From assembly GCF_019880225.1 (NCBI RefSeq), contig NZ_CP082284.1, forward strand, positions 434,001-498,000: a DNA stretch of 64,000 nucleotides, in the 5' to 3' direction. Under the pieces are notes generated by a model. The model was not told the DNA's origin and did no database searches. It was given only the letters and a program-made list of their open reading frames with translations. A program made the translations under genes and the position numbers. The stretch's first letter is position 1. Each line of letters starts with the position of its first letter. Of this stretch, positions 7,324 to 8,199 are shown one piece after another. This DNA is from Halobaculum rubrum. GTDB lineage: Archaea; Halobacteriota; Halobacteria; Halobacteriales; Haloferacaceae.

Positions 7324-8199
7324 ATGCCTCCCTCGTCGTCACCGGCGCTTCCCTCCCTCGCAACGGTCAGTGACCGGTTCCTCGAGGGGGGACACGTCCG
7401 GGTCGAGGAACTCCTCGACGGGACGGTCGTAGGGATCGAACTCGGACGCGAGGGCCGTCTCCGACTCGCGTTTCCCGACACGTCGACCGACGGACGACCG
7501 GACGCCGCGTGGACCGCGGCGGACTCGGCGCCGCCGCGGTACGACTTCGCCGTACGATATCTGGAACGGCGGTTCGATCGGAACGCGTTACGGAGCGCCG
7601 TCGGCGACCCGACAGCGGTGACGGTCTGGGGGATCGCGGTCCACCGCCGACACCGGGGCTACGATTGGGACATCGCTCCGCCGGTGGTCGGGCTCGATAT
7701 CGAGCATCCCGGGACGACGTTGCTGCCGCACGAGCTCGACCGGGCGTTCGACGGGCTCGGCCTCCCGACACCCCCGACGATCGATACGGAGGTACACGTT
7801 CGAGGGCTCTCCGCCGACGGCCTCGAGCCGCCGGAGACGCGCTGGGGCGAGGGGACCGCCCTCGGCGTTCTCTACCGGAAGAAGGGTGGCGGCCTGGCGA
7901 CCACACGCGCGCCGGCGTATCGGGACGCGCCGCCGGAGCCCGAGCCGATCACCGAGTCGGCGGAGACGTACGCCGCGGAGATCGCTTCGCCCGAGACGAT
8001 CGGGTCCGCGGCGACGGGCCTCGAGTCGGACGGGCGGTCGCCGACCGTGACGGCGCTCACCGACCGCGTCATGGACCGGACACTCCGGGATCGGTTCCTA
8101 CAGATCACACACGGCGAGACGACGCTCGCCATCGACACGCTCCGGAGTGCCGTCGCCCGACGGGTGGCGGAGTTCGTCGGCTCGTCAGCGAACGAATAG
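7324..8199 (+). CDS. RNA-ligase-like (nucleotidyltransferase-fold) protein lacking the catalytic lysine
   Basis: Order and spacing of motifs resemble ATP-dependent RNA ligases of the Rnl2 type common in haloarchaea. A HVRVEELLDGTVVGIEL segment sits where motif I (KxDG) belongs, but reads LLDG at residues 30-33, so the adenylated Lys is Leu. The motif III region reads VWGIAVHRRHRGYDWD (residues 101-116), with Ile104 where Glu is expected. The motif IV region reads LGVLYRKK (residues 180-187), with Leu for Glu. All three key residues are therefore lost, while the intervening fold is kept over about 190 residues. The C-terminal 100 residues are an unassigned helical tail. Start: the ATG at 7324 (291 residues) rather than an upstream GTG at 7261. 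A non-catalytic role such as RNA binding is inference. Confidence 0.6.
   Translation: MPPSSSPALPSLATVSDRFLEGGHVRVEELLDGTVVGIELGREGRLRLAFPDTSTDGRPDAAWTAADSAPPRYDFAVRYLERRFDRNALRSAVGDPTAVTVWGIAVHRRHRGYDWDIAPPVVGLDIEHPGTTLLPHELDRAFDGLGLPTPPTIDTEVHVRGLSADGLEPPETRWGEGTALGVLYRKKGGGLATTRAPAYRDAPPEPEPITESAETYAAEIASPETIGSAATGLESDGRSPTVTALTDRVMDRTLRDRFLQITHGETTLAIDTLRSAVARRVAEFVGSSANE

Follow-up and report, generated by a model that had tools for sequence, protein, structure and literature searches.

What becomes of an RNA ligase that has lost the residues with which it seals? The question is raised by a gene of Halobaculum rubrum at positions 7324-8199 of the window, the 64,000-nucleotide stretch of contig NZ_CP082284.1 (434,001 to 498,000) analysed here, whose product keeps the motif order of an ATP-dependent RNA ligase with the charged residue of each of three signature motifs replaced. 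Rnl2-type ligases, archaeal Rnl3 and a rewired Rnl2 from Diplonema are already described (PMC4606414, PMC12153264, PMC4599027), and the biological roles of the Rnl2-type enzymes are stated as unknown outside kinetoplastids (PMC4599027). For a dead Rnl2-type family we found no description in the searchable literature, a body of text from which most subscription journals are missing.

The predicted fold and its active-site positions

The preliminary description of this DNA had read LLDG at residues 30-33, VWGI at residues 101-104 and LGV at residues 180-182 of the forward-strand open reading frame 7324-8199, and had taken them for motifs I, III and IV without their Lys, Glu and Glu. All three stretches read as claimed and all three residues are indeed replaced; the loss is moreover wider than had been noticed, as the family alignment reveals that the protein also lacks the motif IIIa Phe (Leu124), the motif V Lys (Thr193) and the motif Ia Arg, where motifs Ia, IIIa and V were placed in the haloarchaeal family by alignment and spacing. 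The assignments of motifs I, III and IV are not arbitrary, since the motif I region (ExxDG) contains no gaps in the 150-member family alignment, in whose intact members K, E and E occupy the motif I, III and IV columns. The features are the following:

7324..8199, forward strand: coding sequence of the putative Rnl2-like pseudo-ligase (the window protein, P0001), 291 aa with an ATG start; orthologues of the same length occur in other Halobaculum genomes
7324..7935, forward strand: predicted nucleotidyltransferase (adenylyltransferase) domain, about residues 1-204, aligned by VIA-align to residues 139-337 of the Naegleria RNA ligase
7411..7422, forward strand: motif I position, LLDG, residues 30-33, with Lys changed to Leu30; 48 family members have Lys here, as do those outgroups in which the motif can be read
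7624..7635, forward strand: motif III position, VWGI, residues 101-104, with Glu changed to Ile104; Glu in 44 of 48 Lys-bearing members
7861..7869, forward strand: motif IV position, LGV, residues 180-182, with Glu changed to Leu180; Glu in 39 of 48 Lys-bearing and 0 of 110 Lys-less members
7900..7902, forward strand: motif V position, with Lys changed to Thr193; Lys in 35 of 48 Lys-bearing members
7936..8196, forward strand: predicted C-terminal helical domain, about residues 205-291, with DSSP helices at 213-289 in the AF2 model; Arg255 and Arg274 conserved family-wide

By sequence alone the window protein matches nothing in Pfam, NCBIfam or the PDB, with no PF09414 match above the gathering cut-off in the Pfam search and no match to TIGR01209 (archaeal Rnl3) in the NCBIfam search, so that the claim of RNA-ligase ancestry needed independent support. 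One line of such support is provided by its relatives. A whole-genome search of the class returned a family match in 195 of 391 genomes; the copies most similar to the window protein (50-81% identity) belong to the same genus, among them that of Halobaculum saliterrae, which was also the sole match in an exact peptide pattern scan of the genome contigs, and more distant copies, some featuring EKVDG, FFGEA and AEGVVIRNK, are about 30-36% identical to the window protein. The latter finds Lys-bearing members at E of about 1e-30 to 1e-37 and its nearest mixed-state relatives at 6e-40, and the Lys-bearing members tested score 58-71 bits against PF09414 RNA_ligase, where the cut-off is 27 and Lys-less ones fail. 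Ordinary sequence similarity thus ties the window protein to Rnl2-type ligases through members that pass the Pfam model, and chance resemblance is excluded by these E-values and scores.

The second line is structural. An AlphaFold2 model of the window protein, built on 90 family members, reaches a pLDDT of 93.8 and a pTM of 0.90, and Foldseek places T4 Rnl2 and archaeal RNA ligases at the top of its PDB matches (E about 6e-6). Residues 1-204 of the model superpose by VIA-align on residues 139-337 of the Naegleria RNA ligase with Z 16.2 (185 aligned, rmsd 3.1), and the structure check against Rnl2 (2HVQ) that had been proposed yields Z 14.8-14.9 for T4 Rnl2, with full-length 2hvq aligning to model residues 1-289, though at a high rmsd (251 residues, 6.6 A). 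The model of a Lys-bearing member (pLDDT 90.5) recovers the same leading PDB matches at slightly higher Z; RNA ligases stand well above the DNA ligases lower in the structural listing. The resemblance to RNA ligases is borne out, and the earlier estimate that about 190 residues keep the fold holds as to retention and falls short as to extent, which is essentially that of the whole protein.

Among known systems the closest is the T4 Rnl2/PF09414 family (Naegleria RNL, trypanosome REL1), with which the window protein, according to its model, shares the nucleotidyltransferase fold, the motif order and perhaps the C-terminal helical domain, but from which it differs in having neither the Lys nucleophile, the two Glu, the motif V Lys nor the adenine-stacking Phe, and in being missed by the Pfam model. 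Archaeal Rnl3 (TIGR01209/PF18330; PAB1020, MthRnl), whose structures match the window model at Z of about 11-12.5, has the superfamily fold in common with it but constitutes a separate family, which is absent from the window's genome and not enriched in Lys-less genomes; Rnl3 is a proposed partner of HARP (PMC12153264). Diplonema DpRNL is likewise a relative of Rnl2 whose ATP pocket is unusual, and its authors predict rewired ATP binding in what is still a ligase (PMC4599027), whereas the window protein has lost the whole catalytic set.

Published biochemistry indicates what these losses should mean. The nucleotidyl group is accepted by the motif I Lys, without which steps 1 and 2 both fail (PMC3514331); the window protein would accordingly be expected neither to form ligase-AMP nor to adenylate RNA. 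In T4 Rnl2, ATP is contacted by F119 at the adenine, by E99 and R55 at the ribose and by K227 and K225 at the phosphate (PMC3149579), and since the motif positions that make these contacts are lost in the window protein, little of an ATP site can remain. Retained ATP binding is therefore unlikely, and of the two roles floated at the outset, RNA or nucleotide binding, the second is disfavoured: the Phe that stacks on the adenine is gone, as are the contacts to ribose and phosphate and the two active-site lysines.

Recurrent loss of catalytic residues in the family

To place the window protein among its relatives, we assembled 150 extracted proteins and 8 added ones into an ingroup of 158, plus outgroups. 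As the 150 are the best matches to a Lys-less query, the active-site counts that follow are not frequencies: the motif I Lys is kept in 48 of the 158 members and absent in 110, and reading the motif I Lys, the motif III Glu and the motif IV Glu together gives KEE in 37, KE- in 7, K-E in 2, K-- in 2, -E- in 9 and --- in 101. That no Lys-less member (0/110) keeps the motif IV Glu suggests that this residue was lost before or together with the Lys; nine Lys-less members retain the motif III Glu and some the motif V Lys. The Lys-less proteins come from 29 genera and nearly all have intact, full-length frames.

The preliminary description had asked whether K, E and E are substituted across orthologues and had regarded orthologues with KxDG in the same column as refuting its idea of a pseudoenzyme. 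All close orthologues of the window protein lack the three residues, the motif I Lys being absent from seven of seven Halobaculum copies, but distant members of the same family do keep KxDG in that column. These distant members represent ancestral-like, intact ligases, so that the loss has occurred repeatedly inside the family and the idea is refined, not refuted. An example is HTUR_RS19290 of Haloterrigena turkmenica pHTUR01, which belongs to the same single-copy family, has the same length and fold and is, like other such members, about 30-36% identical to the window protein; unlike the latter, the Lys-bearing haloarchaeal ligases keep KxDG, GE and EGV, evolve more slowly and never share a genome with a Lys-less copy in our sample. 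In public annotation Lys-bearing copies are labelled 'RNA ligase family protein' and the Lys-less Haloferax and Natronomonas copies 'hypothetical protein'; where automated 'RNA ligase' labels are met in haloarchaea, the catalytic residues need checking. At two loci with Lys-less copies (L205, 4112-4834; L206, 4070-4795) the start given in the database lies about 25-40 codons downstream of the one indicated by homology, and these late starts remove or skirt the motif I region.

The direction of change is set by the outgroups, which keep K/E/E wherever the motifs are readable and thereby polarise it as loss: L183 and L184, two Rnl2-like proteins of a different family within the phylum, and L186-L189. 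The latter four represent a second haloarchaeal Rnl2-like paralogue family of about 300-340 aa, found in a few genomes, whose KxDG, AEN and EGV motifs are intact. In a tree built without the active-site columns the ingroup is monophyletic with support of 99, and the best topology implies about 14 irreversible Lys losses (the raw count is 15, one being an outgroup fragment without the motif I region) or 9 unordered changes, under a model of vertical descent. A single Lys-less clade is rejected (dlnL 235.6, p-AU 4e-55, 73 rows). The deep branches are weakly supported, and collapsing forks below 95% leaves only about 3-4 forced losses. Both types occur within each of six genera, for instance as a sister pair in genus g71. 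The broader finding is the recurrence of catalytic-residue loss across the haloarchaea.

A dead paralogue beside an active sister is a common pseudoenzyme arrangement. In a sample of 155 genomes, 48 hold a Lys-bearing copy, 107 a Lys-less one and none both, and the genome of Halobaculum rubrum, which encodes RtcB, features no second family member, no PF09414 match above cut-off and no TIGR01209. The dead protein is hence no surplus copy watching over an active one: the ligase is replaced in place, not by duplication. A regulator of an intact paralogue is ruled out by the same absence of co-occurrence, and a regulator of Rnl3 is unsupported, with Rnl3 in 16 of 48 Lys-bearing, 19 of 107 Lys-less and 86 of 236 remaining genomes.

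The loss is targeted. Across 66 columns conserved to at least 95% in the intact set, Lys-less proteins show a median retention of 0.80 (genus-weighted); it is lowest at K30 (0, since the set is defined by it), at E180 (0) and at E104 (0.11), the next lowest values being those of His196, close to motif V, and of an Arg of the motif Ia region, and it is full at E29, E156, P170 and G181. In the trio formed by the window protein and the two orthologues nearest to it, dN/dS (NG86) is 0.31-0.36, and the same estimate ranges from about 0.13 to 0.55 across Lys-less groups and from 0.08 to 0.30 across Lys-bearing ones. Constraint on the Lys-less proteins, so estimated, is somewhat relaxed and clearly purifying. 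Fold match, losses shared by close orthologues and purifying selection together lend support to the initial proposal of an RNA-ligase-fold pseudoenzyme kept by selection.

Candidate functions of the retained scaffold

Repeated loss, a retained scaffold and purifying dN/dS point to recurrent in-place conversion of ligase to pseudoenzyme and not to the decay of one gene. We propose that the window gene is, with somewhat better than even probability, a catalytically dead but maintained member of a haloarchaeal T4-Rnl2-like family that likely binds RNA ends or nicked duplexes. As sealing has been lost many times and the protein retained, the fold would do something besides sealing; and as the scaffold, E29, E156, K187, R255 and R274 are conserved in dead and live members alike, that function is probably shared, with RNA binding as its simplest candidate. 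The RNA-ligase scaffold would thus have been kept for a second job, already present in the active ancestor, most likely the binding of RNA ends or nicked duplex RNA in the cleft between the nucleotidyltransferase and C-terminal helical domains, by which the RNA would be protected, sequestered or handed over. In lineages no longer needing sealing, the catalytic residues would decay in place while the binding function stays. The wider version of this proposal, to which we give roughly even chances, is that the family's active members also hold the conserved non-ligase function and that catalysis is dispensable, so that many lineages dropped catalytic residues independently and drifted to an RNA-binding protein, with the intermediates (KEE, KE-, -E-, ---) still alive. 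The range of natural forms, from intact through intermediate to dead, is in itself a means of finding the non-sealing function, and Lys-less copies in tractable genera such as Haloferax make knock-outs and pull-downs feasible.

Binding a protein partner is a common fate of pseudoenzymes. A dead ligase fold could accordingly serve as a protein–protein scaffold or inhibitor, engaging not RNA but a protein, for example an enzyme of RNA repair or processing, and such a role would fit the loss of ATP-pocket residues from a protein whose structural residues and some of whose charged ones (E29, E156, R255, K187) stay near-invariant. We nonetheless regard it as rather unlikely: an active family member is excluded as the partner, since the two types never meet in the 155 genomes, Rnl3 is excluded because 88 of 107 Lys-less genomes lack TIGR01209, as does the genome of the window, and no conserved neighbour gene was found at the family loci.

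Ordinary decay, in which the ligase is unneeded and its copies are pseudogenes being lost, has several observations on its side: Lys-less lineages evolve faster, with somewhat higher dN/dS and longer branches, presence is patchy (the 195 of 391 genomes above) and one copy (L197, G009:C1:1482278-1489138) is broken into three parts that lie in different frames; this true pseudogene shows the gene to be dispensable in at least one species. Yet the frames are intact in nearly all of the 110 Lys-less members from 29 genera, dN/dS lies well below 1, the predicted fold is confident and complete and 80% of the intact-set invariant columns are retained in the median. Decay would not spare invariant columns while striking catalytic ones hardest, and as a general account it is largely refuted and improbable.

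Slightly less probable still is an ATP-independent ligase that has given up self-adenylation but retains step 3, the sealing of RNA adenylated by another enzyme. The precedents are the Mth RNA ligase K97A, which loses steps 1 and 2 and keeps step 3, and T4 Rnl2 K35A, which is partly active in step 3 (PMC3514331), and the Lys-less members that keep the motif III Glu or the motif V Lys could be read in this way. Against it, however, all 110 Lys-less members are without the motif IV Glu and the window protein has in addition neither the motif III Glu nor the motif V Lys, and the Mth ligase is inactive in every step when motifs I and V are mutated together (PMC3514331); nor is there an Rnl2- or Rnl3-type enzyme in the genome to supply adenylated ends. 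For the window protein, sealing of pre-adenylated ends would almost certainly be impossible.

Least probable of all, to the point of being very doubtful, is a rewired enzyme using a migrated Lys or other nucleophile for nucleotidyl transfer or a different reaction: Diplonema provides the precedent of an Rnl2 pocket that is rewired and not dead (PMC4599027), and 100 of 102 Lys-less members have a basic residue at position K187, but K187 is equally invariant in intact ligases and so not compensatory, a search of the Lys-less family alignment for a compensatory lysine found no other strongly conserved Lys column, and the replacements vary both at K30 (L, Y, W, H, R, A and others) and at E180.

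Neighbourhoods, mobile elements and viruses

The gene neighbourhoods of the family loci contain no class-wide conserved partner. The secY-proximal position of the window gene is shared only with Halobaculum saliterrae, and as the neighbourhood varies even within Halobaculum, no partner can be named. More local arrangements do occur. In genus g2 about 15-145 bases separate the Lys-less gene from gyrB-gyrA, which follow downstream and point the same way (L033, L037, L063, L108, L111, L131, L134, L141, L147, L148, L150), and in three genera of one family Lys-bearing copies are found between a RIO-type kinase gene and that of tryptophanyl-tRNA synthetase (trpS), again in the same orientation (L021, L035, L041, L045, L050, L054, L074). 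Both adjacencies are genus-level synteny; the RIO kinase and trpS flanks raise the possibility that the active enzyme is linked to tRNA or ribosome maturation.

At about 10 of 150 loci in varied genera, including L206 (Natronomonas pharaonis PL131) and L207 (Haloterrigena turkmenica pHTUR01), the ligase-like gene has a TnpB-family gene no more than a few kb away. TnpB being common in haloarchaea, this proximity is possibly near chance level; circular TnpB-associated RNAs have been reported in archaea (PMC12558985). A viral origin of the gene was also considered and rejected: viral contigs searched with a Haloferax copy gave no match, and a Lys-bearing query recovered distant phage ligases only. 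Among viral proteins, an RNA ligase of Halogranum tailed virus 1 (KC292026.1, 105172-105945) is 28% identical to Lys-bearing haloarchaeal proteins, and a viral route into or out of the family is possible.
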